NCBI GenBank assembly: GCA_037893245.1
Contig: JBAIAA010000314.1
Coordinates: 186,001 to 250,000 of the forward strand
Direction: 5' to 3'
Length of the DNA stretch: 64,000 nucleotides
Source: Crossaster papposus
Taxonomy: Eukaryota; Echinodermata; Asteroidea; Velatida; Solasteridae
Part shown: one piece after another, positions 3,380-52,080 of the stretch
Layout: each line of letters begins with the position of its first letter
How positions within the stretch are numbered: the stretch's first letter is position 1
The notes under the pieces: model-generated
The model's database searches: none
Told to the model about the DNA's origin: nothing
The model's input: the letters and a program-made list of their open reading frames with translations, nothing else
Made by a program: the position numbers and the translations under genes

Positions 3380-5430
3380 TCGTAATCTTATTGGTCAATG
3401 CGCGCGTAGTGATTGACAGGCCGGATCGGTCCATAGTTGAGATAGGGAAGAATGAGAGAGTTGTAGAGAAAGACCATAGTAGCCTGGAAAAGAAATGGGC
3501 GGAGCTTGGCAAGGACCCCGGTATTATAGAGACAATTTTAGTGATAGATGAAATATGGTCAGACCAGGAAAGATTTTCATCAACAAGGAATTTAGTAGAT
3601 GAAACTCTAGATAAAAGAATGTTGTCCATATAGATACGAATGATGTCAGGGGAAGAATTTGAAAACGTTGAAAAAAACATATACAATGTATTTGGTTTTG
3701 GCATGATTCAGGGAAAGTTGGTTGGCAAATACAAGAAGAAACTTTGATGAGTTCAGAATTTAAGGAATCGATACAGTATACAAAATGTATACGTGGTTCA
3801 AGATTAGTGCCAAACTGCAAAATTGTTGTGTCGTCAGGAAAATGAGTAAATGAAAAAAGGCAAGAGGAGGAGTGTAAATCATTAATATAAAGTAAGAGGA
3901 GAAGAGGACCCAAAATAGAACGCCATGGCGGATGTTTTGATGGGACGAGTGAGAGTCATGAATAGAATTGAATTGTTGTCTTTCACTGAGGTACATGTAC
4001 CGGTAGCTGGAAAACCATTGCAGCAGAATACCTCTAAATCCATAGTAATCAAGTTTAGATAAGAGAATAGAATGATCATTAGTATCGAAGGCTTTCGATA
4101 AGTTGATAAAGATCCCAAAGGCCGACATCTTGTTAGTAACTGCATGGGTGAGTTTATCAATCAGCTGAATGAGAGCCATGTCAGTCAAATGATTAGCACG
4201 AAAGCCGTAATGTTGATCAGAAAGAAGATTGAAGCGAGAGTTGTTCAGATGATGAGACAATTGTACACAAGTCTTTCTACAAATTTTGAGAAACAAGGAA
4301 CAATAAATATGGGGCTGTAGTTATGAATATTGTTTCGGTCTCCAGATATGAATATTGTTTCGGTCTCCAGATTTATAGATGGGAATAACTTTAGCCATCT
4401 TAAGGTTTGATGGAAAAAAACCAGTGTGAAAGGAAAGATTGAAGATATACATGTAAGTTATCTGATGTCATCAAATCCACAACTCTTGCTGTTTTTTTGT
4501 ACTTTGATGACTTCAAAGCTGTTTGTCGGTGAACAGAAGAAAGATGTGCTATTGGGGTCATGTAGGTAATCAGTGAAATGAGTTAGTGGGTGAAATTTTG
4601 CCAGCCAATGTCGCACCAATGTTAGAGAAGTAATATTGAAGTAATCGGCAATTTCAGGTGGATTTGTGTAGGAACACTGTCCATCTGAAAATTCGTCCGG
4701 GAGATTATTAATCTTACGCCAGACATTCTTGATATTAGCTTTACTGGTGTCAAGCCTTTGAGCATAGTAATTCTGTTTAGTTGTACGGATGATAGCTGTC
4801 GGCTTATTGTGATCTATAGGCTTTATATTTACGCTCGTTGGCCGACGTTGGGTTATTTAGAAAACTCCTGTAAAGCCTGTTGTTATAATTACAAGAAATG
4901 ATGATAGACTGGTTGATCTAAGGTTGATTCCTAGATGATTTACCGACTGTTTTGACATGATATGGAAAATGGAGGTTGTAAAGGCTTCTGAAAACGGAAA
5001 GGAAAGTATTGTAAGCGGTGTCAGCTTGGTCGACCAGCTTGATACATGTACGGTACCTTACTTCAGTCTTTAATCTGGATGTGTCTGAAATGAAAGAATG
5101 TATAGTGTTTGTGTTAATTTCCCTGGTGATGTAAGTACGGTAGAGTAGTCTGGGGTGGTGCAAAGTTCTGAAAGCAATATGGAGTAATCTGAAAAAGAGG
5201 AAAATGATCCGTTATGTCAGAATAAAAAAAACCAGACGAAATATCATGGTCGTTGTTAGTAAGAATGTTTTTTAATAAAGTGGCACTAGGGGTGACGCGA
5301 GTGGGTTTGTCTATTAACGGCCAGAAACCATAGGAACAAAATGTGTTAACAAAGTCGTCCGTGGATTGATGTTCTGGTGAAAAAATTCAGGTTAAAGTCG
5401 CCCATTAGTAACACAGCTTCTTATCTGCAG
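3380..5430 (-). pseudogene. Decayed non-LTR retrotransposon (CR1/L2-like LINE), EN 3' end and RT
   Basis: Read on the minus strand, broken frames give, in order: an apurinic-endonuclease tail with GDFN (codons at 5393-5404); a linker with FPSNLKMAKVIPIYKSGD near 4390; the reverse-transcriptase palm with LSKAFDTNDHSILLSKL near 4050-4110 and the altered catalytic box FPDD near 3820-3845 (family form F-A-D-D); and a thumb-like region with STKFLVDENLSWSDH near 3590. Stops and frameshifts are frequent, so it is dead. The 5' end stops at a poly-G run at 5453. Order EN-RT and these motifs fit the CR1/L2/Jockey group; the exact clade is not resolvable by eye. Confidence 0.8.
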
Positions 5431-5699: not shown

Positions 5700-7500
5700 A
5701 CATTTGCGTACGGGCCTGAAAGTTATGGCGTTGAGACAGTAGTCAAAAGACCTCTAAAAATTATCTATTGAAGTACATGTACCAGGAGCCCTGTACACGT
5801 TGCCAACAATCAGGTTACTTGCACGGTTCCGGTGAATTACTATAAAAACACACGAATCTCACGAACAAAGAGTTCAAAATCTCCGTTGCTGTCATCAGCT
5901 TTGCCTGGTGGACTCACCGGTGATTCTAATTCGGGCAATTTTGCTGTGTTTTTTTACGTCCAGCTGGCATTTTGGAGATCTTGGCTTTGACCTTTTTCTA
6001 CTGGTTAAGGCCGCTTACTGAAGTTGACTAAGCGTGCCGGCCACGTTCTTTCTGCAGACTCCTGCAGACTTTTTTAACAAAAGAGCCCTTAGTTACCCGT
6101 CCTAGCACAGGCCAGAACGCTTCATTTAAATAACAAACAACGTGAATATACCCGATCTTCTGCAGACCCGCCGGGCCAGCTGGAGCGCTAGGGAGCTAAT
6201 TTAAATATGAATAGTTACGACGATGGCCGGTCAGTCTGCAGAATACCGACTTGCAAAACCGCAACTATTTTGATGGTTTGGCATACTGGCCCCGGATCAC
6301 GAACATGGCTGTTTTTCAAACATCAGCTTTGTCTTCGTTCTGCAGTTTAGCAATAGGCTTTAGCCTGATACAGAGCCGAAGCCAGGGATTTTGAAAACGG
6401 TCCAAGTACAAGTATTATTTATAAGTTAACGATCATGTTCGTTATTTGGAGGGCCCGGTTCACTATTATAAATATTAGGGAACAAAATACAGAATAGTTG
6501 ACCAAATAGCATACCAAACTGGTTATTGGCGACATTAAAAAGAACATGCATGCATGTCACGAACACGAATAGAGGGCATTGGTTTTAAATTGTTAAGAGA
6601 TATTATTTATTATTTTTAAGGGGGATTATTTTAGGGGATTAAGGAAAATGTATCCCTAAGCGAGTTTTTCGTTTTCACGAAGGGACTAATTGATATATGG
6701 CCTTTTTCTGTTTTCACGAACAGACACTGTTTAAATGATGCAAACTTTAAGAAACTTTGTGATTAATTTTGCAAAGATTAGAATCTCTTATTTCCTCTGA
6801 TACCTTTATCTTGCATATTCTATTCATCTTTATGTTTCAAACTGCTAAACGAAAAGAAAAAACTTTACGCGACAATATACACGAAACAGCCTATTTACAC
6901 GATTCGAACTTTCCAGCGATCTTCGCACGCATGCATTGCACAACTCGGAACTAAAAGCACGCAGGCCGTTTTCCATACCCCAGCCTAGGCCCTATACGGG
7001 CTCCATCACCATTGCCAAACTACAGGAACGAAGCCTCAATGGAGACGAAGTTGGGGTTTGGAAAATGGCCTCGGGAAATCCCCGCTGGCAAGTTGCTACA
7101 TGTAGCTAGCTACTGGGAACACGACGACAGTTTATGTATGCACTCTGAAAATGCAGATATGGGACGCACAACAAGTAATTTTAACGGACAATGTTTGTGT
7201 GGCACCACTTCCAGTACAGAAGTTTCCTCTCCAAGTTGATAAATTAAAGCAAATTAATTCTTCCCAATGCTGATGGTACGGTGCAAATCGTCGGTGTTTG
7301 TTGACACTGTAGCAGGCTTCTGGACGGATAATCAACGGTTGCTTATTATTCTTCCGTCCACGTTGTTCCTGGGCTGGCGACAACTAGCTGCATGCAGGAT
7401 TGTCGGACCATTTATTATACATGGTCTGACGAATTGTTGACATTCGCACAATCCGAAAGTATGCCACGTTAGGCCTGATTTAATATATTCATTGTGAACA
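5700..7500. other. No gene recognised
   Basis: Unique-looking sequence with scattered TACATGTA and GCATGCATG words. Short open frames on both strands (for example 7012-7239 +) show no recognisable domain and no splice context that I can support. Confidence 0.5.
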
Positions 7501-7503
7501 TCC

Positions 7504-8339
7504 GTTGCATTTAGTCAAGCCCTCAGACTCAAAAGGATTTGTTCTAACGACTATGATTTCTCCCGCCATTCACAGATACTGAAGAACAACTTGGTTGCCA
7601 GGGGTCACAGTTCCCGCCAAGTTCAACGTGCCATTGCCAGAGCCAAAGCCGTACCCAGAAATTTGGCTCTAAAGGTAAAGGCCCCCCAGGCTAATGCCAA
7701 ACCCATGATCCCCCTGGTGACTACCTTTCACCCCAGTCTCCCTTCCCTTCGCAAAATCACCAACGACAGCCATCACATTCTCCACACTTCAGATCGCCTT
7801 GTCCGGGCCATCCCCGACAGCCCTGTATTGGCCTATAGACGCCCTCAAAATCTACGAGACCTCATTGTTCGAGCCGAAGTTCCCAGCTTGGATGCATCTC
7901 CCCCCATCCAGCACGGAACTTTCAAGTGCAGCTCTAGATGTGTGGTCTGCCAGATCCACATTCAGGAGTCTGACTCCTTTTCTGGCCACTCTTCTGGTAC
8001 TACTCATAGAATTATTGGTAACATCACTTGCAGTACATCTAATGTCATATATCTCATCTCTTGCAGGTTTTGTGGAGTTCAGTATGTCGGAGAGACCAAA
8101 AATGCCCTAAAAAGCGTTTCTACGGTCATCGATCGACTGTCAACACCAAGAAACTGGATACCCCTGTAGGACATCACTTTAACCAGCCTAACCATTGCAT
8201 TTCTGATATGATTCTTCAGGGCATAGAATCACTTGGCCATCGGAAAGACTCAGTCCGCCTCAGCCGGGAGAAAGTCTGGATGAATCGTCTTCGGACTATT
8301 CAACCACATGGGCTTAACATCCAACTAGGAAATGATTAA
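7504..8339 (+). pseudogene. Penelope-like element PLE1: connector and GIY-YIG endonuclease, 5'-truncated
   Basis: This is the C-terminal part of a Penelope-like retroelement polyprotein. The frame opens upstream of the first ATG (SQALRLKRICS at about 7513, then LVARGHSSRQVQRAI), the usual stretch after the RT. It continues with RRPQNLRDLIVRAEVP, a cysteine motif (CSSRCVVC) and the nuclease start NVIYLISCRFCGVQYVGET, matching the GIY-YIG fold (family knowledge). A frameshift at about 8110 moves the rest into another frame: RFYGHRS, TPVGHHFNQPNH, WMNRLRTIQPHGLN, stop at 8337-8339. The RT itself is missing, as in a 5'-truncated copy. Endonuclease role: target-site nicking during retrotransposition. 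Confidence 0.85.
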
Positions 8340-37643: not shown

Positions 37644-37934
37644 CAGTGAAATCTCCACGCCATCCAGATGTAGATATTTCTTTAAGTGAAGCGTGGAAAA
37701 GAATGCTGTCGTCTTATTCACAGCCCATGATGAACGGAGTGAGGCTACTAGGCGAAGGACGAGCAGCAATGTAGGCAATCAGCATAGTCAAGAAACGGGG
37801 CTCGTAAGCACACACTCGCTAAGAACAGCGCGTGAACTAACACGTTTGTTTATGGTGTAAATCGAGGAGTTTCTTTTGTTCTTCTCGATAATTTCCTTTG
37901 TTTGTACTCCGAGCACATGAAATATCAGCAGGAC
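37644..37934 (+). other. BEL/Pao leader, first part
   Basis: Sequence directly after the 5' LTR, up to the TAA target site of the next insertion; expected to hold the primer-binding site. No coding frame. The leader resumes at 41787. Confidence 0.45.
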
Positions 37935-38619
37935 TAATAGTCAGGTGGCTTAGCAAATTTAACGTTACCGGCTGGACAAAAGTACCAAATTTGGCATGGA
38001 GTTTCTTTTCGACCTATCTATTGATTTTATCCGTGGAACCCACTTGATCGGTTCCAATTTTCCAAGATGGCGGCCAAAATCCAAGATGGCCGCCAGAAAC
38101 AAAGGAAATGTCATATATATCTGGCTGTAAAAATCGGAAATGAACAAATGAGGTGTCAATTCAGGTGTTTCCGGGGTCACTAAAACAGATGCTGGTCATG
38201 GCATGTTGCTCGGGTCACCCATTTCCAAGATGGCGGCCAAATTTTAAAATGGCCGCCAAATAAAAGGAAATTATACGTATATCTGACTGTGAAAATCGGA
38301 AATTAACAAATGAGGTGTCAATTCAGGTGTTTCCGGGGTCACTGAAACAGATGCTGGTCATGGCATGTTGCTCGGGTCACCCATTTCCAAGATGGCGGCC
38401 AAATTTTAAAATGGCCGCCAAAAAAAAGAAAATTACGTATATCTGACTGTGAAAATCGGAAATGAACAAATGAGCTGCCACATTTCAAAATGGCCGCCAA
38501 TACTACATTTAAGATATATGACAGAAATTTGTACACAGAGGTGTAAAATAATTGTTAGATTCAGCACAGCTGAATCTTATAAAGTGGTATGAATATGTTA
38601 ATGTGATGTAGGATGTGAC

Positions 38620-40790
38620 GGATTAACTCCGACAAAACTGGCGGTCAAAACTGGCGCTTCTTCCTGCACCAGCTTGCCGTCCAAATAGGTGTTCCTTGGT
38701 GATGGCTAACCTAATCCCTATATCTGGCGGAAAGCCTATGCTTCCTCTCAGGATAGCTCCTTGCAGGTTTCCTAGAGTGTCACACCGAGGGAGTGGCCCT
38801 AGCAAGTCCACAGCAACTTTCTCCATGGGCTCGACCACCAAATACTGTTTGAGCGGGGAAACTCTTTACTCCTCCCACACAGCTCGCAACATCTAGTCTG
38901 ATAAATGGCCTCACACCCGCGGTCATTCCGAGCCAATAGTATCGCAACTTGACCTTGACCTTGACCAAAGTCTTATTGACCCCTAAATGGCCACTCGTCT
39001 GACCACTCGTCCGGCCACCATGCAGCTCCTGAAGTACGACCTTTCTAAATTTCTCAGGAAATACTAGTCGCAACCTCACGGACTTCCCATCGCCGGACTC
39101 CCAATTTCTAGGACACCGTCCTGCACCTTCAACTGATCCCAAGAGAACCAGAGAGTCTTGTGTGCCGAGGAGGCGCCCGACTCCTTTGCCCTGATCATCC
39201 AACCAATACTTCCGTCACCAAGTTGACCCTCTCTGACTGCATCCTTAGGCAATTGTGGTTGAGCAAAGATGCCCCTCACCCTCGCCTCTGGGATCGGCAC
39301 GTCAGAGTCAGCCTCATGGCGACCATCGCCAACCTCACTGATCGTTGTCACCTTGGCCTTATTCGAAGCCTCAACGGTCTCTGGCGCTTCATCAGCGTCA
39401 GCACGACCACACTGTTTGCAGGCCTTCCGGGACAACCCATCAGCATTTCCATGCTTTCGCCCAGGTCTGTGTTGAATCGTCAAATCGCACTCGCTGATCA
39501 CTTCCAGCCACTTGGCAAGCTGATCCTCGGGGTCCTTAAAATTAAGCAACCACCTAAGAGCAGCATGGTCGGTTCGGAGTAGCACCTTCTGACCATACAG
39601 GAACTGTCTAAACTTCCTGAGGTAGACAACTCCCGCCAGAAGTTCTCTCCGGGTAACACAGTAGTTCCTCTCTGCCTTGCTGAGTTTGCTGAGTTTTCTT
39701 CCCCATTATAGATCTGAGACAAAACTGCCCCAATCCCATCCCCACTAGCATTTGTATCTAAGATGTAGTCGTTATCAGGAACGGGGTTTGCCAACACCGG
39801 TGCTGTCTGCAGCCTCTGCTTAAACTCAACAAATGCCTGTTGGAAGGCATCTGTCCACTGGAACTCACGCGACTTTTCAGTCAGCGCATGCAACGGTGAA
39901 GCAACCTCTGCAAATCCCCGGACAAACTTCCGATAATAGGAAGCGAGGCCCCAAAAGCTTCGAACTTCCTTAACACACTTAGGTGTTGGCCAATTGGCCA
40001 CGGCCCGAACCTTCTCAAGGTCGGTAGCCACACCTTCAGGCGACACAATATGTCCCAAATAGCCCACTGATCTCTGAAACAAGAAGCACTTACTATATAG
40101 GCTTCAACTTTAAACCAGCTCGCCTCAACCTGGAGAAGACGACTCACAGTCGTTCAATCTCCTCTTTCACAGTCGTTCAATCTATTCTTTCACAGTCTTG
40201 CCAAACACAATGACATCGTCCAGGTATATCAGCAGGATGTCCCACTGAAGACCTGTCATCACCCTCTTCATCAACCTTTCAAATGTCGCAGGGGCGTTGC
40301 ACAGACCAAAGGGCATGCAGCGCCAGCTGTATAAACCGTTCCGCACTACAAAGGTTGACTTCTGGTTGGCATCCTCATCGAGGTCGACCTGCCAATACCC
40401 GGACGCTAAATCGAGAGTGGAAAACCACTCTGCACCCACCAACGCATCTAGTGTCTCGTCTATACGAGGGACAGGGTAAGCAGTTTTGATTGTTACCTTA
40501 TTCAGACCCCGATAGTCGACACAAAATCGCTTAGTTCCGTTCTTTTTTCCGGACTAACACAACATTTGCAGCCCAGGGACTATAGGATGGCTCGATAAAC
40601 CCTCGCTTCTTCAAATCTCCAACCTGCCTCTTTATTGCCTCCTGGTTACACAAGGGATGGCGCCGAGGCCTCCCTTTGATAGGCCTCGCATCACCCGTAC
40701 TGATGTGGTGCTTCAGAAGAAAATACATCCTGGAATCAGGCATGCTTTCACCTCCTCATGATATTCCTCAGCGAGGTTGATCTTACTACG
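38620..40790 (-). pseudogene. Ty3/Gypsy pol fragment: RT, RNase H, partial integrase
   Basis: Minus-strand blocks in order: RT entry with ISTGDARPIKGRPRRHP and LKKRGFIEPSYSPWAANVV (40743-40531); palm with WFSTLDLASGYWQVDL, PFGLCNAPATFERLM and catalytic IYLDDVIVF (40442-40182); RT/RNase H junction YLGHIVSPEGVATD and RSFWGLASYYRKFV, with TDAFQQAFVEFK and the altered LDTNASGDGIGAVLSQ (40082-39498); LLRTDHAALRWLLNFK and QHRPGRKHGNADGLSR (39585-39400); integrase zinc-binding HHCC region LGVNKTLVK (about 39000); and the first Asp block MEKVAVDLLGPLPRC (38841-38790). It then ends, so the integrase core is truncated. Frameshifts throughout; no LTRs in the flanks. Confidence 0.9.
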
Positions 40791-40829
40791 GTCGTATTAT
40801 ATCATGCAGGTAACTTGGCAAGCCTCCTT

Positions 40830-41290
40830 AAACCTCACACCCACGACTCTCACCCGGCACCACTACCGAGTCAACCTCAACTGTCGCAATTGTGCCCACA
40901 GTAATTCTTTGGGTACTTGATCAGGTACTTCTTCTAGCATTGACGCCACCCACCGAACTGACTAGAAATGGCGCAAAAGGCCCCAGAAGTCGCAAAAATG
41001 AGCTACGGCGATTGGTCACAACGCGCTAATTATCTATGCAGTTACCGGGCAGAAGCTCTTTGAACCGGTAATTTGTTGCTTAACCCTGATCATGCAGCCG
41101 TGCGTTGATGATTGGCTGCTGCGCCATGTATCACGCAGTATGAGCGCGTGATCCTACATGAGCAATATATTTTTAGACTAACTAGACGTGCACACGAGCC
41201 GGCATATAGGCCCTACCCAGTTCCGTTACAATACATTGAATTGAAAAATTGTAGATACAATTCCTGAATACTACCAGTATGTACTTAACA
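40830..41290. other. No gene recognised
   Basis: Non-coding sequence between the Gypsy fragment and the right arm of element B1. Confidence 0.45.
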
Positions 41291-41789
41291 GTGACAATGG
41301 GTATTTTTTGTTATATTGGCCGACATCTTGGAAATGGGTGACCCGAGCAAAATGCCATGACCAGCATCTGTTTCAGTGACCCTAGAAATCCCGGAATTGA
41401 CACCTCATTTGTTCATTTCCGAATTTCACAGTTATATACGTAATTTCCTTTGTTTTAGTGGCCATTTTGAAATTTGGCCGCCATCTTGGAAATGGGTGAC
41501 CCGAGCAACATGCCATGACCAGCATCTGTTTCAGTGAGCCTGGAAACACCTGAATTGACACCTCATTTGTTCATTTCTGATTTTTACAGCCAGATATGAC
41601 ATTTCCTTTGTTTCTGGCGGCCATGTTGGATTTTGGCCGCCATCTTGGAAAATCGGAACCAATCAAGTGGGTTCCACGGATAAAATCAATAGATAGGTCG
41701 AAACGAAACTCTATGCCAAATTTGGTACTTTTGTCCGGCCGGTAACGTACGTTAATCCTGAAAATTGTCGCTAAGCCACCTGACTATAA

Positions 41790-42344
41790 TGTCATGCGAA
41801 CTTTGCAAAAGGAACTATATCATATGCAGAGCCTTGTAAAAAACAGTTGGTTATTGATGGTTTGATAACATAATGTTGTGCATGTAATATCTGGAGTAGA
41901 GCCGGTACATTTAAAAGGTCAGCTATGTAAACATTAATTTCTGCTCTTTGTGTGCTGCATATAGTGTGCAAATATCACTCGCAATTTATTGTGCACTTTA
42001 TAATGTTGAATACTTTGAAATATTAATATGTTGTTGGCTGATCGATATCCCCTGATTGCTCAATTTACACGTATATTGTCTGATTAATCTTTGGCCCTAA
42101 TTGTGTATTGTTGCATACATTTACAAGTGCATTGACTTGTTGTGTAAAATGCATTGCAATTCACCTGAGGTTTGTTATCACAAGTGTTATAGGAGAACCG
42201 ATGGCTTGTAAAACACAGATTAAATGTCACGTAATTTTGGAAATTGTTGTATTTTTATCTTGCATATGGCATTTTGTAAGCAACATTGATCAGTCATTTG
42301 TTGACCCCATTTCCTTAAAGTTCTGTCATTTCTGAGTTCCCGCA
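41790..42344 (+). other. BEL/Pao leader, second part
   Basis: AT-rich sequence preceding the gag ATG at 42345; no supported feature. It belongs to the BEL element by position. Confidence 0.4.
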
Positions 42345-42960
42345 ATGTCGAGTAACGAACTGGAGGATCAAGCTAAGAAGTTGGAAGACGAAATTGAATA
42401 ATCTACTTCAGCCCTAGAGTCAGTAGATACTCATACCGAAAAAATCTAAATTCTAAAGGATGTCAGCAGCAAGCAGGAAGAACTCTTCAATCTAAACAAG
42501 CCTTCCGAGAGTGATACCCGGAAAAGCAGCAAAACAAAACACCTCGCAACCAAGAATTAGACAAAGTCAAAAAGAAGGAAAAGTATTCGCTCACAAGTAC
42601 GAGTTGTGGAAGGAACGCAGTAGAAATGCAAAACTGAAGTTCAAGAGTTACTGCACAGACTTCACACTTGAAGAAGTATCTTCGTTATATTGCACATCAC
42701 CCGAGATGAGGTGATTGGTGCATATGAAGCTTGTCGACAACTTGACCCCCAGAACAGGAAATGCGCCGCCGGGTCGACACATGTTCAGCTATAACAGAAC
42801 AGATTCTGAAGGAGGTTGTTGCTGAAGGGGGTTGTTGCTAAAGATGTTGCAGACACTGCACATTTTTCCAATGAGTTAAGACAGCTGCTGCACACCGATG
42901 GCAACGCATCTATTTTCTCATCGAAAGCATCAATAGTGTATGCTGTTATGTTGCAATTAT
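42345..42960 (+). pseudogene. BEL/Pao gag, N-terminal part
   Basis: Frameshifted blocks: MSSNELEDQAKKLEDEIE (coiled-coil start at the ATG), SSKQEELFNLNKPSESD, then RDEVIGAYEACRQLDPQNR and DTCSAITEQILKEVVAE, then FSNELRQLLHTDGNASIFSS. The A-Y-E...R-K...D-x-C-S-A-I-T-E-Q pattern is one I associate with BEL/Pao gag N-termini. The sequence stops where the TIR element B2 begins (42965), and gag resumes after it at 50804. Confidence 0.65.
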
Positions 42961-43660
42961 AGGGAGTGAACCTTTCATATAGAATCTTGAAACTGGTACC
43001 TATTGACTTCTTTAGATCACATAGGATTCAAAACCACCTGTTTCCATTTTTTTCCAGCATGGATACGCACTAAATCCAAGATGGCGGCCATTTAACACGA
43101 TAATCGCTTAATCGCCAACTATTTTGGACATTTGTAATGGATATAGTTGTCCAGTATATCGTTTTATAGGTTTTTTGGTCACTGAATTCATTGAAGTATT
43201 ATCATCAATAACAAAACGCATAAAGTGAATAATCATCCAATATGAGGTATAATTGGCGCCATGATGTGGCATGGCACACCCATAAATACCCAATGAATGG
43301 TACACAAATATTTTGGTTATAATAATGTATATTTGTTTTTTAGCAAAATAAATCTGTCCTGATCGTTCTATGGAAGACTGCATGGCATGAGCCATAATAA
43401 TGTAACCACAGGAATGTATGCATGGGTGCAATCTGCCATGAAATCAGAGTTGACCGGTTGAGAGAACGATGGCGCTTTCCCATTCAGTTACATTTCTTCT
43501 CTGGTGACTTGTATGGCTTAAATAATCGTGATTTAGTCTATGCCAAATTATGTTCGTAATAAATGAAATGGGCGGACATAATAGACTGGATGACCGTTGT
43601 AGGTTTAGGTAAATCAAATGTGATTTGTTTTTGGGGTGCGAGAAGAGGATTGTGTTCGCA

Positions 43661-43731
43661 AATCCTCTTGTAAGCAAGAGCATGCTTTCGTGCCTGCTGT
43701 CGTGGCACTCGTCAGTTGCATATGGGTGATT
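43661..43731 (-). ncRNA. Hammerhead ribozyme (Penelope-associated), minus strand
   Basis: On the minus strand, reading down from 43719: GCAA (stem I, 43719-43716), CTGACGA (43715-43709), stem II GTGCC/GGCAC around a 9-nt loop (43708-43690), GAA (43689-43687), stem III AGC/GCT with an AT loop (43686-43679), cleavage base C at 43678 (triplet CUC), and TTGC (43677-43674) closing stem I. An outer AATC/GATT pairing (43731-43728 with 43664-43661) can extend stem I beyond an internal loop. All invariant core bases are present. The very short palindromic stem III is typical of minimal Penelope-associated hammerheads. It lies about 110 nt after the PLE3 stop codon. Confidence 0.82.
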
Positions 43732-43828
43732 CCAGGAGGAATCGGTAATAACTCGCAGGGTGTGTGGGTTTAGTGTGGTCCAATCAATTATCGTGAATTG
43801 GAAGTGTTTGGAACATAGCTATATGTTT

Positions 43829-44897
43829 TTAGTTGGTTCCGTGTTGTTCCTCTAGTAAAGAGAGCAGTATGTTGAGGGTTTCATCATTTTCAGTAGGTTC
43901 TTCAAAGCCCGAGTCGGATGGGAGTGGTTTGAGCACTTGTTTTTGTTGTTGTAACTTGGCTCGTAATAGTTTTTCCCGGATGTTCTGGGCTTTTCGGAAG
44001 GCAATGAATGGGAGTTTGGGAAATATTTCCGAGAGTATATTTTATTTCCTTGGATTAAGTTCCAGTGTTTGTTTACTGCTTGATATATGTCACGGTGGTT
44101 TATGGCTGGGTTGTATGTAGTGGAGAAGACAAGTGGAATTTGTTTGGATTTGTCTTCAACCTTGGTTCTGTGTATCAATCTTGTTCTGTCGGTATGCGAT
44201 ACTTTGGTTGTTGATTTTTCAATTTCAGTGGGGCTGTATCCTCTTTTGACTAGTTTCTCTGAGAAAGATTTGACTTTGTTTTGGTAATCATCCTCGTTGG
44301 TGGTGTTTTTAGCGCATCGGAGTGTTTCTCCGTAGATGAACGCTTTGAAAACGTGGGGTGGGTGGGATGGAGATATTAGGTTTCCGTTAGTTTTGTGTAG
44401 ACTTTGGTGTCTATAGGATTCCTGTTTTTCGGAAACGATCTCCTTTGAAGATGGTTAAGTCAAGGTAGTTGATGGATGATTCAGAGGCTTCGTATGTGAA
44501 CTTTAGTGTTGGGTGCATCTTGTTTATTTCTGTGACGAGATTTTTGAATTCGTCCAGAGTTCCATTGTAGATGACCATTATGTCGTCTCTATAACGCCAC
44601 CATGTTAGGATGTTATCCGCTTTTCGGGTTATTTTTTTCGAAATCGTGTAGGGTCATATCACATATTTCAGGGCTTGATGTGGAGCCCATTGCACAACCA
44701 ATTTTCTTTGAAAAAAACCAACTTGTTTCCGAATTGAAAGCAGTTTCGGCCGAGGATGAGTTCCAGAAGTTTGTGGACATAGGTTGATGGTGGCTTTGTG
44801 ATGGTATAGTTGTGGTTGGTATTTTTTTTATGGCATTGCATACACAATCGATTGCTTTCGTTTGTCGGAACAATTGTGTACATGGAAACGTCTATGC
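43829..44897 (-). pseudogene. Penelope-like element PLE3: RT palm and C-terminus
   Basis: Minus strand from the insertion edge: SIDVSMYTIVPTNES (RT motif A), FFSKKIGCAMGSTSSPE (motif B region), then WWRYRDDIMVIYNGTLDEF (catalytic Y-x-D-D, about 44600-44545), NYLDLTIF, and the connector VFSTTYNPAINHRDIYQAV. A second frame reads FIAFRKAQNIREKLLRAKL and ends after LEEQHGTN at 43829-43852. Unlike PLE1 and PLE2, I see no GIY-YIG domain between the connector and the stop codon, so this lineage may lack a C-terminal endonuclease. Confidence 0.82.
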
Positions 44898-44900
44898 TAG

Positions 44901-47900
44901 TAGGCCGTCAGCTGAGTGCTCAAATTCGTTCGTTTCATTCCAGCAAGAGTGGGTCTAAATTTTCTGAACAGTTCCAAATAAATAAATGACTCTAGATTAC
45001 TAGAAAAATAGTTCTCCATATTTCATCCTGCAGTTATTTAATAATCCTGCTGTAAAGAGCGAACTATTTTGGCAACAGGGAAGTTTAACGACGTAATGCG
45101 CAACGTTACAAAAATCCGTTCGCGAATGACGCAATCGCATCACGTGTTACGAATTGTCTAATCCCACACCAACTCGTCGATCCGTGCAAGGTCGACGGTC
45201 ATGACATGACCTACATTTGACATCAAACATGGCGACGTCTAGTGTAGACGGTACGTCAAAGTCGACCGATGTAAATGCATGAAATGTGACTAGAGTAAGG
45301 TGTTTCATGCTTGTTGAATCCGTAAAATGTGAAAAAGTGAAGACCCTTACAAAGATCAATTTACTTCCTGTGCCAAAGAGTGACTTAATTTTAGCGGCAG
45401 AGCTCGTGAAATCACCGGACAATCCCAAAACATGTGGGCCTGTCGTTACGCATACGATTTGCATTGGTAAATGCCTGGGCCCTGCCGCACTCGCACACAG
45501 TCCGACCTGGTGTACATTTGTTTACAAAGTATAACACGCCTGAATGCTGCCATGGCTTCATCCCCGAAAATCCCCTGGGCAAGATCAAAATCGTCTTCTG
45601 AAAATGCTGGACACGATGAAAGAGCTTCAAGTTCGGAGGTATTGCTTTTTAAACATGGAAAATGAATCTCGGACATTAGCTGCTAAGTGCTACAACAAGC
45701 AGAAATATCTGATGGAGGTAGTTATTTGTTGTATTCATGTTAATTTATGTAGGTTGTATATTGTTTGACTTGCATGTGCTATCTTAATGGTCATCTGGTA
45801 TAAATATAAAAATATTAACAAACCAATAGCCAATATCTTATAATAAATACAAAACTTGCTATTTTGTATGACAGTCGACTGTCGCACGTACGTCACTTGT
45901 CCAGCGAACGGTTTTCATCAGATACTCACCTGTCTATATTACTTTTTCTTCTATGCAGAACTGAAGTTGAAGAGATTATCCTCAGCACTCTGCTTCCACA
46001 AACATTTCCCCAAGAAACTAATGCACAAGATTGTCTACATTGCTACTTTAATTGTCAGCTAAATGTCGAAAATCTGGAATCTTCAGACGGAACTTCAACT
46101 TCAAGTGGAACTTAAGAGTCACAAACTGCAAAGCGAGAGAGATGATGTATCCTGTTCGTATGCTTTTGCTGGCCAGCATTCTATAAGAGCTTCATTTATC
46201 ATACAATGCAGGTTTGAAATTTATATTTATGATTTATCATGCAATTGCTAAGATATCTGCAGTATTTGCTTGTATTTCTTTCCTGAATCCCACAATTTTA
46301 TTTTGTAAGTATAAGGTTGTGTTGCAGTCATTTAGTTGGCACTCTGCAGAACACAAAAGTTGGGTCTGGGTACTTAGTCTGTCTATCATGGGTTGAATTT
46401 TTTTTGAGACAGTGAACAAAACTATGCTGATTAAAAAAGATTAATAACAGAGGTAAAATATGTGTGGGGGGGGGGGGGGGGGGGTGGGGGGTGCAGGAAA
46501 ATTCAATTGTTGGTACATTGGCCACCCCATCTTTTTGTCACGGGGAGGGGGAGCATTGTCACCCATTATTTGCAGGAAAATTCCACTGAGTGCTTGGAAA
46601 TACATGTAAGTGTATGTAATTAACATTCATTATTATGTTTCTATTATGTATAGATTTGACCGTACATAATACGATTAAAGATATCCCTGCCATGACTTGT
46701 CCTTGGCCACCAACGTCAGATGAGTATAACTCTGGAGTTGCAAGAATATTTATTTCTTTGGAACTTTTCCACTAAATGGTTTGGTGTATTTGGGAAACTG
46801 AAGTGCCAAGCATTACAACCTGCGCAGGTGTAAAATTTTAAGATAAGATCAATCGTGTCCTTGTCTGAATGCAGAGCTACCATGTCCAGATCTGTGCAAA
46901 TGCGCAAATTGCACCAACTTTACAGAGGTAGCTGTTTAGTTTTAGGCAAGGGTGACTTGTAGCATAAACGTTGATGTACAGTTATTAGGAAATTTGTTTT
47001 GCAGTTCTGGTTAGATGAAAATAAACTAAATTAAATTATCAAGAAGCCCAAAACATTTATATTTTACAACTATCCTTCTGTTAATTAATTTAAGGCCAAT
47101 TCAGTACTATAAAGAATGCATTGAGTGCAATTAAAGGCTAATCATGTGAACGTTGACACTACGCTTGCCACTATGAGCCAACACGCTCTTTTAAAAATTA
47201 ACTGCTACAAAACAGCACTAGTTATTTTCCTTTTGTGGATACATGACAAGTCCTCAAAGCCGTACAATTTTGTATTTTGGCACAAAACACTTTCATACCC
47301 AGATGGCCGGGTCAAGTGTGTAAACAATGGCTCTTTCCTGGAATTTGTATACTAAACTCGGAATTCTGACAGTCCTTTGATTAATAATTGTAAGCCTGTT
47401 TCATTTACAAGCACATTTTTTTTTTCAATTTGTTACAAGTACATGCAGTGTTTTTGTCAAGGGGTACATCTTTTCTGTTTTTATGTTTGTTCTTCTGCCA
47501 ACTGAACATGTTATTGTTTTAAAGCCTAAATGTTAAAGCCTATATATGTTTACCGTTTAATAATTTAGATTATAATGACATATTTTTGTGAGAGCAAGGC
47601 CAGTGCTGATGTCCACCAGAAAAAAATTTCGGATAAGAATTTCTCAGATACAGATGCAAATACAAAGGTCTTGTTGCTGTTTTGCTGTGTTATAAATTTT
47701 CAACAGATACATTTACATAAAACAATTGTTCTTTACTATACGATTTCACATGTTGTTTTTTTCAAAATCGGAAATGCCAAAGCAAGACCTCGGACCGCAA
47801 CAGTGTTTGCATTGTTAATGTCCTAAGTATGTGGCACGGCACAGCCCCTATAACATGGCGCACCTTGATTGTTCGGCTCCATAGTGCCTAATTTTAAAAT

Positions 47901-48433
47901 TAAATTTTACAGCTTGTGAAATTTTCTCAACCTGTAAACATTCCTGTTCATTTTAAGTTTACAAAATTAACACATTTATTGTTAGTGTGATTTTCTGAGT
48001 GCGCCACGTTTAAGGGGAGTGGTGACGATTTTGTGTCCAATTTCCGGACAGCACTTTTTAGGGGTATTTCGGACTACATTTCATGAAAATAAAATTGTTA
48101 ACAAAGATTCAAGAGCACGTAGTATGAAGGCAAATGTTCCAGTATTTAGCTCCATAAATTTAAGTTCTATCAACAAAGAGGTTCGGAAACACCGCACCAG
48201 AAAAGTCGAGGGATACGTCAAGAAAGTGCGCCACGATAGGGGACCCGCTGTACATAATAATGGCCAACTTCGATGGAGTGTAAACAAATAACTGCAGCAT
48301 TATTATTGGAGAACTTTTAACATGATGTTTGTGATGTTATTAACCTCGCATATATGCATTACAAAAGTAGACTCAGTGTTGCTGGAGCGAAACGCAATTT
48401 ACAGCCTGTTTTTAAAGTTCAGCTGACTGCCTA
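44901..48433. mobile_element. TIR element C (3.5 kb, TAG TSD) splitting the PLE3 RT
   Basis: Ends TAGGCCGTCAGCTGA (44901-) and complement of TAGGCAGTCAGCTGA (to 48433), with weaker similarity continuing about 60 bp (TTCCAGCAAGAG/CTCCAGCAACAC). Flanked by TAG (44898-44900, 48434-48436). Removing it and one TAG restores the PLE3 frame exactly (N-A-L-I-A-S-I-D-V-S). The interior has several modest frames (for example 45286-45534 + and 48019-48291 +) with no recognised transposase domain, and a G19 run at 46466. Confidence 0.85.
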
Positions 48434-49480
48434 TAGCGATGAGAGCATTTTGTGAGAATGTTTTTCCTTCTAGTTTGCGCAAAATGTCTGCGGTGTCGCG
48501 GACATATGTGGATTGCGCGGTTACAATTGGAAGGAGAAAATAGTCTATTCTTAAAATTTTGGCTGTAGGACTTGTGCAGCCACTTATGATTGGTCGTCCA
48601 ACAAATGGTTCTCCCCTTGGTGGAATTTTGTGTATTTTCAGGAGAAAATACATTGTTGGACAGAGTATTTTCAGAGTATTGGTGTCGATGTGTTGGTTGT
48701 TTTTTCATTTGTGTTGTGAACCATAGTTGTGGTTTGATGGGTAATATCCTGGCCCTGTTGGGTGTAATAATGGGACTCAAGATGGCGGTAACCCACTTGT
48801 AAATAGTCTGTTTGGTTCATTATACATATGCCTCTACCTTTGTCATATGGTTTGACTACGATGTCGGGATGTTTTTTGAGGTTGTTTATGGCGGAGAGTT
48901 TTTGTTTAGTCAGGTTCCTTTGTTGTTTTCCTAGCCTTATGTGGGCTATTTCGAATTTGGTGGCTTCCAGGTATTCTTCTAGTATTGCACTAGGTGTTGA
49001 TTTTGGATGCCAATTGGATGGTGGGTTGAAAGAATGTGTTTTGGAGTGTTTGTTACGCATTAGGAAAGCAACTCGCAGTTTTTGATTGAATGTATTTATT
49101 TCACTCACGAGTGTTGTGTTTAGTAGGAGTAGGGACGAAGTTGAGGCCTTTTCCTAAAACAATTTTCTCGGTATGCGATAGTGTTGCTTTGGATAGGTTT
49201 GTTATAAATGACTCGCATTGTTCTGTTAATAGTTTGTGTTGTTGTTGATTGGATTTGGCTTTTTTGCTTTTGCATTTGCAAGAGAAGATTTGATTTTAGT
49301 TGGCTAAGGGATCTCTTTGTTTCTTTATTACATTTTCTTCTTGCCATGGCTATCCTATGCGGAAATTTTATTTCAATATGAAATTTTTTTTCGGATGGTA
49401 GGGCACAATGTAAACAAGAACAACGGTTTTGTCTCTGTTGAAAAGTTGTGGTGGTCTTGAAAAAGACCATTTGGTTTGAT
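48434..49480 (-). pseudogene. Penelope-like element PLE3: RT N-terminal region
   Basis: Minus-strand frames give TEKIVLGKGLNFVPTP (near 49170), INTFNQKLRVAFLMRNK, LEEYLEATKFEIAHIRLGKQ, PDIVVKPYDKGRGICIMNQ (49108-48671), then YFLLKIHKIPPRGEPFVGRP and VRDTADILRKLEGKTF (48653-48440). These are the Penelope RT N-terminal and fingers motifs in the right order. Frameshifts lie near 49110 and 48660. The frame continues at 44897 once element C is removed. Confidence 0.85.
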
Positions 49481-49487
49481 GAGATTT

Positions 49488-50120
49488 TTAGCAGGGATGT
49501 TTCCTCTTGATGCCTCTTGATTGTCGGGGCCTTGTGAAGAAACTTAGCAGCTGTTGTGCTGTTTGGTGGTCTTGGCCTTGGTATTCAGCAAGCTTTTCCT
49601 GATCAGCTCGTCTTGAGTCGGTGTATGTCGCCTCCGCCAGGTCGAGTTGATGTTCGTACTCTTCTAGTGCGACTTTTGTGAAGAGTAGCGATGTTCGGCT
49701 TTGCAGTTTATTCCAACGTTCTGTGAACGATTCTTGAAGTTTCACCGATCGTTGTGGTCTTGGTTGCCTTATTCTGATTTCCAGGTATGGAGGTGGTCTG
49801 GAGGTCTCTAAGTGTCGGGACAAAGATTTTATTTGTCGAGCGATGTGATCCTTTGCAAAAGTCAAATTGTTGATCTTTACTGCTAAGGTTTTCACTTCTT
49901 TGAACTTTGTCGCTGGTAAACGGTGAGAGGCCGGTGGTGTGTTACTTGATGTTGATGGGCGGGGTTGGTCGTCTAGTTCTAATGATAGAAGTAGAGACTC
50001 ATCGTCGGTGCCAAGTGGTGTGCGTTGCCCGCAAGGTATGCTTGAAACCGAACTGTATGGAGACGGAGGCGGCTGGCTGTACTTGCTCTTGCTGGATTTG
50101 CTTCTGCTGAGTTTAGACAT
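49488..50120 (-). CDS. PLE3 upstream ORF, coiled-coil-like protein (about 210 aa)
   Basis: An open frame with Ser/Pro-rich N-terminus (MSKLSRSKSSKSKYSQPPPS), a helical middle (KEVKTLAVKINNLTFAKDHI; LQESFTERWNKLQSRTSL; LEEYEHQLDLAEATY) and a basic C-terminus (RPRQSRGIKRKHPC). I chose the ATG at 50120; upstream in-frame ATGs to 50186 lack the charged character. It precedes the RT frames on the same strand, as the first ORF of some Penelope-like elements does. No GIY-YIG signature is seen. Function unknown; nucleic-acid binding is plausible from charge. Confidence 0.6.
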   Translation of the reverse strand: MSKLSRSKSSKSKYSQPPPSPYSSVSSIPCGQRTPLGTDDESLLLSLELDDQPRPSTSSNTPPASHRLPATKFKEVKTLAVKINNLTFAKDHIARQIKSLSRHLETSRPPPYLEIRIRQPRPQRSVKLQESFTERWNKLQSRTSLLFTKVALEEYEHQLDLAEATYTDSRRADQEKLAEYQGQDHQTAQQLLSFFTRPRQSRGIKRKHPC

Positions 50121-50269
50121 TATGAACATCTGATGACTAATAACGTGGCAGATAACTAGCATCCGGATACATGTATAATTGAGCATTCAATTTGATATGT
50201 GTATGAACACCATTTTGTTTTCCCCATGTTTGTTAGATACATAACATGCCTAGGTAAATTTCCATAACA

Positions 50270-50700
50270 CAAGTATGTTGATAAATGGTTTGATTTTTCT
50301 GTATATGGTGGCCACCATCTTGGACTTATTGTACGACATTAATGAAAACATTCAAAACTTCTTAAAGTAACATACTTGGTAGAAAAGAATATTGTAATCA
50401 CAAAAATGTCCTTAGCTTATCATTATACATGTATGTAAATAAATGGTTCAGATATAAAAATATCGTATTTTTTCGAAATTTGGTGGACGCCATCTTGGAT
50501 GTTGTCAATGGATATGAATGAAACATTTGAAGACAGTCTACTTCATACAACCAGATGTAGATACAAATATATTGTAATCAAAAGCATGTCCATAATAAGC
50601 TTATTATTGTGCATATAATGAATACGTTGGTTCAAATTTAACGATTTATTGCTTTTTCGTTATATGCTGGCGGCCATCTTGAATTTTGCCACTGGACATA
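50270..50700. repeat. ~190-bp subterminal tandem units with CCATCTTG words
   Basis: Three diverged units, each with GG(C/T)GGCCACCATCTTG-like words, an 'atgaaaacatt' stretch and ATATTGTAATCA(C/A)AA. They form the inner part of the right arm of TIR element B2. Confidence 0.7.
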
Positions 50701-50803
50701 AATTAAAAAAATGGAAACAGATTGTTTTGTGTTCAGTGTGATCATAGAAAGTAAAAAATCACAAGTTTCCAGATTCTATATGAACCGTTCACTAAATAAC
50801 ACA

Positions 50804-52080
50804 ATGACATACACTACAAGCCGAGCATCGTCTTACCTGTCTGGAAGTCCATCTACTAGGCGGGCAAAGGCTGCTGCTGAATTAGCTGCTCTGAAGGCAG
50901 AAATGAAAATACTGGAAGTCCAATTTGATGTATATGACCAGGAGTGCAAAAGTAGTCGAGAGGATAATTCTGGAGGTGACCCTCTTGATGAGCCACACCC
51001 TGGGTCAACTGAGGTAAACCAGGAGGCACAAAAAACACAACCAAGGCCAGTCAAAGCATCAGAAGGTGGTAACGTAGCAGCTCTTGCCCAGGGTCTCCGA
51101 GACTGTATGTCGATGCAGAAGTTGCCTCTTCTGGAGCCCAGTGTATTTACGGGAGACCCAATCCGTTATGTCGAATGAAAAGCCAGCTTCAAGGCACTCA
51201 TAGAGTCAAAGGCTATCTCCACACCAGAGAGGGTCTACTACATAAAGCAATACTTGGGTGGAGAAGCACTAAAGACTGTGGAAGGGTTTTTCTACAGCAC
51301 TTCAGAAAAGTCATATGAGGGAGCATGGCGATTACTCGAGGAGCGATATGGGCACCCCTTCAAGGTTCAGAAAGCTTTTCGAGATAAATTATCGAAGTGG
51401 CAAAAATAGGCCCAAAAGATGCAAACGGTCTGCAGCAATTTGCAGACTTCCTTAAAGCATGTAAGGACGCCGTTCCCCATGTTCTTGCACTGAGGATACT
51501 CGACGACTGGGAGGAGAACCGGCGTCTGCTCTCCAAGTTGCCAGATTGGGCTGCAGCTCGTTGGTATCGGCAAGTCACACAGAAGCTTGATGACACATAC
51601 GATTACCCTAGTTTTGAAGAATTTGTGGAATTTGTACGCAAGGAAGCCCGGGTAGCGTGCAATCGTATCTCATCGTTGCATGCACTAAAGTCAGTAGATA
51701 CATCGGAGCCAGAGGAGACACGAGGAAGTTGGAGAAGAGCCAACCGAGGCAGAGGCACAGCGCAAGCAGTAGGATCAAATGAAGTCTACAAGAAAACCAA
51801 GGAAGGCCAGGCACCATTTAAGAGTACGTTCCAGCCAAAAGAATGCCAGTTTTGTAAGAAGGCGGAACACCACACAAGTAAATGCCCTTGCTTCAACACC
51901 AAGTCTCTTGTGGACTAAAAGAAGTTAATCCAAGAAAATGGATTGTGCTTCAGATGCCTCAAGAAAGGTCATTTCTCCAGGGATTGCCGACGAAAGTTGA
52001 CGTGTGACAAGTGCAAGAAAAGGCAGCTCACACTCATGCATGATAATGCACTGGTACGAGTGATTATCCCAATCATATAA
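50804..52080 (+). pseudogene. BEL/Pao gag, C-terminal part with zinc knuckles
   Basis: Blocks: RASSYLSGSPSTRRAKAAAE and LAALKAEMKILEVQFD; MQKLPLLEPSVFTGDPIRYV; then, after an in-frame TGA at 51176-51178, FKALIESKAIS, YIKQYLGGEAL, GAWRLLEERYGHPF; then LPDWAAARWYRQV and YPSFEEFVEFVRKEARVAC; and two knuckles, CQFCKKAEHHTSKCPCF (C-x2-C-x4-H-x4-C type) and CFRCLKKGHFSRDC. This is capsid/nucleocapsid for retrotransposition intermediates. Several stops and frame changes make it non-functional. Confidence 0.85.

Follow-up and report, generated by a model that had tools for sequence, protein, structure and literature searches.

Minus-strand positions 43672–43721 of the window analysed here, a stretch of 64,000 nt (C314:186001-250000, contig JBAIAA010000314.1, from an assembly of 1.02 Gb), hold what is, judged by its sequence, a genuine small hammerhead of the type known from Penelope-like elements (PLEs); we infer that it cleaves. 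We consider it probable that this ribozyme lay in the 3′ UTR of an endonuclease (EN)-less, two-ORF PLE that came to lie within a unit bounded by terminal inverted repeats (TIRs), was amplified in trans and is now decaying as cargo. Ribozymes of this kind are already known from retroelements; the present one is probably for the most part the cargo of a DNA transposon that is moved in trans. The initial annotation of this region had proposed a hammerhead of Penelope type immediately downstream of a Penelope-like reverse transcriptase (RT), with a short stem III prone to dimerization, and this is supported. Its interpretation as a PLE hammerhead stands, but the container with its TIRs and target-site duplications (TSDs), the missing endonuclease and a histone-type stem-loop had been overlooked (Table 1).

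Table 1. Features of the ribozyme, the PLE and the enclosing unit (window coordinates).
Feature	Position	Strand	Basis or remark
Hammerhead motif, type I layout	43672..43721	minus	Predicted cleavage between 43678 and 43677; sequence, descriptor scan, simulated windows
Stem I, GCAA/TTGC	43719-43716 / 43677-43674	minus	Sequence
Core CTGACGA	43715-43709	minus	Sequence
Stem II, GTGCC/GGCAC, 9-nt loop	43708-43704 / 43694-43690	minus	Sequence
Core GAA	43689-43687	minus	Sequence
Palindromic stem III, AGCATGCT; 8 bp in dimer	43679-43686	minus	Sequence, fold prediction
C17	43678	minus	Sequence
9-bp hairpin directly 3′ of the ribozyme	43643..43669	minus	Holds the competing strand in predicted folds
124-nt structured domain round the ribozyme, closing stem TGCGAG/CTCGCA, two side hairpins	43634..43757	minus	Folding against shuffles
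PLE 3′ end	43456	minus	Five ends in L055 and L056, copies without TIR ends
Broken RT ORF of EN-less PLE (PLE3), with frameshifts and one large insertion	43829..49347	minus	Motifs, relatives
RT motifs	KPYDKGRG 48853, LLKIHK 48650, GRPIISG 48599, IDVSMYT 44892, RYRDD 44596; stop 43829	minus	
Insertion in RT, own inverted ends GGC[A/C]GTCAGCTGA	44901..48433		Comparison of loci; 3.5 kb
Histone 3′-UTR-type stem-loop, GGTCTT-TTTC-AAGACC-ACCA	49428..49473	minus	Rfam RF00032, pattern
ORF1, 210 aa, predicted long helices	49488..50120	minus	Model mean pLDDT 68; one relative
Whole mobile unit, 7883 bp, CAA/CAA 3-bp duplication	42934..50816	minus	Ends and TSD
5′ TIR, begins TAGTGTATG	50705..50816	minus	Copy comparison
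3′ TIR, ends CATACACTA	42934..43053	minus	Copy comparison

On the minus strand, the core, the stems and the cleavage point are as first annotated, and together they make up a type I hammerhead, with a CUGANGA ... GAA core, an H17 other than G, and stems I, II and III. Our descriptor scan of the window returned two such motifs, 26341 (+) and 43715 (−), and a looser pattern (CTGAYGAG ... CGAAA) retrieved the same two only, with 0.06 expected. Among 1500 simulated Markov windows with the neighbour-base frequencies of the real one, the geometry of the 43715 motif never appeared and a laxer geometry appeared twice, whilst allowing the stem III loop to extend to 59 nt produces one or two chance motifs per 100 windows. 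The covariance-model search that the initial annotation had suggested as a check does match the motif to RF00163, yet the score of 19.7 bits falls under the Rfam gathering score of 34, a threshold that represents a curator's cut-off and not a biological feature. The possibility that the two hammerheads of the window are copies of one element was discarded after blastn found no match between them. As a separate observation, the predicted minimum of the 26341 (+) motif is the hammerhead fold, with an extended stem I, and a motif that resembles it, with a different 3′ part, occurs in another locus (L052) beside a strong RF00163 match.

The 3-bp palindromic stem III given in the initial annotation proved impossible in a monomer, because only a 2-nt loop would remain; a monomer can form 2 bp closed by a CAUG loop, and two molecules together can form 8 bp. 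Predicted folding of the monomer places the hammerhead 2.4 to 6.3 kcal/mol above the minimum and never at the minimum itself. For the 67-nt stretch alone, a non-hammerhead minimum of −15.5 kcal/mol is predicted, as against −9.2 for the best hammerhead, the competitor being a downstream CAAGAG strand, which is predicted to pair with the cleavage site unless it is held in the natural hairpin at 43669-43643; once this hairpin is added, the gap between hammerhead and minimum narrows from 6.3 to 3.1-4.0 kcal/mol. Among predicted dimers, the double hammerhead represents the minimum when only the 50-nt core is folded (−30.0 vs 2 × −11.6 kcal/mol) and ties with the minimum in the 91-nt form, which includes the hairpin (−50.0 vs −50.1), whereas for the 124-nt domain and the 67-nt form it exceeds the minimum by 3.7 and 6.6 kcal/mol, respectively. 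The very short stem III and the dimer layout of small PLE hammerheads are hence both present, the dimer by prediction and best in the 50- and 91-nt forms. As for the 124-nt domain, its folding is stronger than that of shuffled sequences (z −4.35, with none of 500 shuffles as good), yet −4 is also reached by 5 out of 150 stretches drawn at random from this window, which is rich in repeats, and removal of the 3′ hairpin leaves a z of only −1.66.

The stop codon of the RT lies on the same strand ~108 nt upstream of the motif, in agreement with the ~110 nt annotated initially. Its RT motifs stand in what we take to be the Penelope order. One search gave seven relatives of the RT that are 55-61% identical to it, and another gave three at 56-58%; in one relative (P0010), the C-terminus falls at nearly the same place as in PLE3, at an end that could be the edge of its contig. 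For ORF1, a single relative (P0008) was found, 56% identical over its length. By pattern search, no GIY-YIG pattern occurs near PLE3 or in 13 of its copies, and the only match in the window, at 8044, is on the strand opposite to PLE3. There, VIYLISCRFCGVQYVGET forms a GIY-YIG-like motif, presumably of PLE type, in an ORF at 7591-8169 (+) with no hammerhead beside it. Pfam scans of the RT pieces, ORF1 and the relatives yielded nothing above the cut-off, and because PF28514 and PF26215, with which relatives are labelled in the protein database, are absent from these scans, we derive no name from these labels. No relatives were confirmed among viral contigs, prokaryote contigs or phages, and no solved structures matched two RT pieces. 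The large insertion in the RT is dispensed with in 15 of 20 loci, where 48434 is joined to 44900, and two loci (L012 and L013) carry ~1.45 kb of other sequence at this site; as these two have flanks in common, they are probably one duplicated locus. With PLE RT motifs and an ORF1 upstream of them, PLE3 has the make-up of the two-ORF EN-less PLEs, a published type as presented in the relevant part of PMC6431247.

Between the two ORFs, a stem of the histone 3′-UTR type begins 19 nt past the ORF1 stop. A lax-threshold Rfam search of the whole window matched RF00032 at 49473-49428 with 31.1 bits (gathering 34, E 5.9e-5; 1.5e-7 in a short stretch), and the pattern GGYYYU-UUYN-ARRRCC-AC occurs once in the window without a mismatch, where 0.06 occurrences would be expected if one mismatch were tolerated. 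The predicted folding of this stretch does not in itself stand out (z −1.31). Across 20 loci, the stem-loop is exact in 15, carries one change in two and finds no match in three, with L013 and L026 being without the stretch. Among the papers listed in our search of the open literature, none reports a histone-type stem-loop in Penelope or any other retroelement. Tentatively, and with more doubt than confidence, we suggest that the EN-less PLE made two poly(A)-free 3′ ends, one by the histone-type stem-loop on the ORF1 message, which might couple that message to S phase, a time at which an EN-less RT would find free DNA ends, and the other by the dimeric hammerhead on the RT transcript, before it lost its mobility and became the cargo of a DNA transposon.

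TIRs, fixed ends and full-length copies characterise those non-autonomous DNA transposons that generate 3-bp target-site duplications. ORF1, the RT and the ribozyme all lie inside a unit of this appearance, 42934-50816, which shares with such transposons the TIRs, the fixed ends, the 3-bp duplication and the full-length copies and differs from them in having a PLE as cargo and in its ends, TAGTGTATG...CATACACTA. Among 20 loci, the 5′ end (window 50816-50821) was found in 17 and the 3′ end (42925-42945) in 18. Both ends are clean in 13 of 15 tested copies, 12 of which are flanked by an exact 3-bp duplication and one by 4 bp, as compared with 0.67 exact 3-bp duplications expected from mismatched pairs; the CAA/CAA of the window copy comes in addition. 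Of the 13 copies in which both ends are present, 11 have a unit length of 4.0-4.4 kb and the other two (L012 and L018) one of ~7 kb, and in four copies the inverted repeat between the two ends spans 126-159 nt at 70-73%. No transposase was recognised inside the unit. Inverted ends combined with a fixed-length duplication are those of a TIR DNA transposon, and therefore what carries the ribozyme in the window is to be regarded as a TIR unit and not as a PLE of the pseudo-LTR (pLTR) type. The pseudo-LTR arrangement that the initial annotation had envisaged is not supported: no hammerhead copy was found in the window 5′ of PLE3, and at most one hammerhead is present in each of the 10-kb loci L009-L028. 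Degenerate subterminal repeats of ~180 bp with CCAAGATGG motifs occupy 50263-50690, and a similar-looking unit is seen at 37928-41797 of the window, where inverted 160-bp CCAAGATGGCGGCC arrays flank an ORF with an RT_RNaseH_2 match.

The PLE also has an end of its own. In L055 and L056, where a search for the exact end words revealed no TIR ends, five ends terminate at the position that corresponds to 43456, one flank being common to two of the five, and each comes after TTCTCTTAACC or a close variant of it, the window having CTCAACC. The 5′ starts of these copies match 43886, 43883, 43696 or 43552, and the copies stand in part head to tail; in L055, partial PLE 3′ ends lie at 4443-5096 and 6102-6738, partly head to tail with a unit of ~243 bp. 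A common 3′ end with variable 5′ starts is the signature of the PLE itself, the 3′ end being situated 222 nt past the cleavage site. This signature, including the partial tandems, is seen in L055 and L056 and not in the window copy, and it agrees with the shared 3′ ends, differing 5′ starts and partly head-to-tail order of PLE copies as described in the pertinent part of PMC11167929. Speculatively, base pairing of the terminal TAACC in L055 with telomere-like GGTTA is conceivable; the window itself contains none of the five telomeric repeat patterns sought.

The ribozyme surroundings have further copies in the genome, comparison with which the initial annotation had proposed as a check. A 201-base query over the ribozyme produced at least 41 matches in the 1.02-Gb assembly including the window (at least 40 further ones), 40 of 1075 candidates having been scored, and loci of ~10 kb (20), 0.4-2.3 kb (18) and 10 kb (2) were read. 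The alignment comprises 40 rows, namely the window, 37 loci once and L042 twice, with matches missing the middle of the query being dropped. The ribozyme is intact in 23 rows and broken in 17: five of the latter have a common A6G, seven lack G12 in a shared A-run and are joined by a near variant (L032), and four are single cases. Among the matches listed, the 3′ TIR lies beside all five A6G rows and seven of the eight rows of the G12-loss group. Mean divergence in the 40 rows is 0.0325 for the ribozyme, 0.034-0.084 for its neighbours and 0.048 for the catalytic positions, so a ribozyme more conserved than its flanks is not what these rows display. For this copy, the idea that conservation proves function finds no support, with catalytic positions varying like their neighbours and two groups sharing dead cores. 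The 40 rows diverge too little for compensatory changes in the stems to show, and no covariation is seen among them. Fisher tests of constraint (p 0.004-0.14) are not taken as proof, because their outcome is driven mostly by the fast segment 43829-43758.

The divergent rows, L042 (two rows, L055 locus), L044 (L056 locus) and L046, have an intact ribozyme in four of four cases, and for three of them (both L042 rows and L044) the TIR ends are absent; this evidence on the retro lineage consists of four rows, two of which come from one locus. Their changes are confined to loop II, H17 (C to A) and the outer edge. L037 has the same A at H17 and a broken stem II. In none of 13 copies is the RT frame uninterrupted, and the longest open frame has 378 aa vs ~660 expected; this set leaves out L012 and L018 for their long insertions, and L010 and L019 have no clean 3′ end. 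Frameshifting indel states number 21 common to at least two copies and 60 private, some of them in base runs where the alignment is uncertain. Given the broken RTs, the shared frameshifts and the shared dead cores, the copies therefore probably multiplied after the loss of the RT and, in two groups, after that of the ribozyme core.

Our preferred reading combines these observations as follows. In the living PLE, the hammerhead would cut the RNA of the element in its 3′ UTR, as the predicted folds suggest, and most likely it would do so as a dimer, in which the palindromic stem III links two ribozymes and the hairpin downstream possibly keeps the competing strand away. One PLE copy would then have been enclosed in a TIR unit, the ends and 3-bp duplications of which are directly observed, and the composite would have been multiplied by a transposase in trans, an enzyme that we infer from the fixed ends, the duplications and the broken RTs. 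The work of the ribozyme would most likely belong to the PLE, in the predicted dimer form, and in the TIR lineage the ribozyme would be cargo, whose decay is visible in the groups with common dead cores.

Could the TIR unit instead be driven by the RT? In that case, the PLE RT would make cDNA, an integrase would insert it via the TIRs with a 3-bp duplication, and the hammerhead would trim the RNA. The RT motifs do lie between TIRs in the copies read, and so, in most loci, do ORF1, the stem-loop and the ribozyme, but the lack of any uninterrupted RT among 13 copies, frameshifts common to several loci, dead ribozymes beside TIRs, and TIR-less PLE copies that end at 43456, inside the unit, make this unlikely. 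A chance look-alike without function is less credible still: the unfavourable monomer fold, the Rfam score under the threshold and a core no more conserved than its flanks over 40 rows would fit it, but the motif is placed at the 3′ end of a PLE, its geometry is missing from all 1500 simulated windows, and the ribozyme is intact in every one of the four rows of the divergent lineage.

Also unlikely, to about the same degree as the RT-driven unit, is a retrozyme-like role, in which the ribozyme would act for small circular RNAs derived from short tandem units. Animal retrozymes, as portrayed in part of PMC7229834, consist of repeats of 150-450 bp that stand in tandem and bear type I hammerheads, and the layout of the present hammerhead and the head-to-tail unit of ~243 bp in the relative L055, ending at 43456, are reminiscent of them. 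This unit, however, starts at 43696, in the loop of stem II, and therefore contains no whole ribozyme; tandem units of such a size, each with a whole hammerhead, were not found, the window copy is single, no 10-kb locus of L009-L028 holds more than one ribozyme, and the element at issue is large and protein-coding.

Among known systems, the small PLE hammerheads, which may act as dimers (Cervera & De la Pena 2014; Lunse et al. 2017, cited in PMC7761336), are similar to ours in the type I layout, the very short stem III, the adjoining Penelope RT and the predicted dimer. As far as their account in that source extends, ours differs in being a single 3′ copy with no pseudo-LTR pair found, in its 9-nt loop II, in the 9-bp hairpin directly downstream, and in H17 being A in the related lineage. 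With Terminons and telomere-associated EN-less PLEs (PMC6431247, in part), PLE3 shares the absent EN, more than one ORF and a 3′-side hammerhead, but it is nested in TIRs, its hammerhead is 222 nt from the 3′ end, and the window is devoid of all five telomeric patterns. PAc, a Poseidon PLE of Anolis, likewise has a PLE hammerhead, in its case over the ORF start and accompanied by a GIY-YIG endonuclease, unlike the PLE in the window. According to the relevant portion of PMC11167929, PAc cleavage was observed only when protein was supplied, and the hammerhead was not needed for in vitro insertion. These data agree that, in vitro, insertion can do without a PLE hammerhead, and that such a hammerhead may need the help of protein. 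In the corresponding part of PMC7761336, PLE hammerheads are described as having no known role.

Elsewhere in the genome, the best 74 of 117957 first-look candidates were scored against RF00163, and at least 72 of these exceed the cut-off with 37.6-45.3 bits, on C251, C338, C353, C258 and other contigs. They are spaced by ~2.43 kb on C338 and C353 and by 3.6 kb on C251, and such regular spacing suggests tandem elements with canonical hammerheads. In 14 control genomes, RF00163 gave weak matches in 11 and none over the cut-off.

If the histone-type stem-loop did work within a retroelement, it would couple an EN-less RT to the timing of replication. The family as a whole could be a natural experiment, in which the lineage that seems to move as DNA loses the ribozyme and the few divergent copies with retro-type ends keep it.
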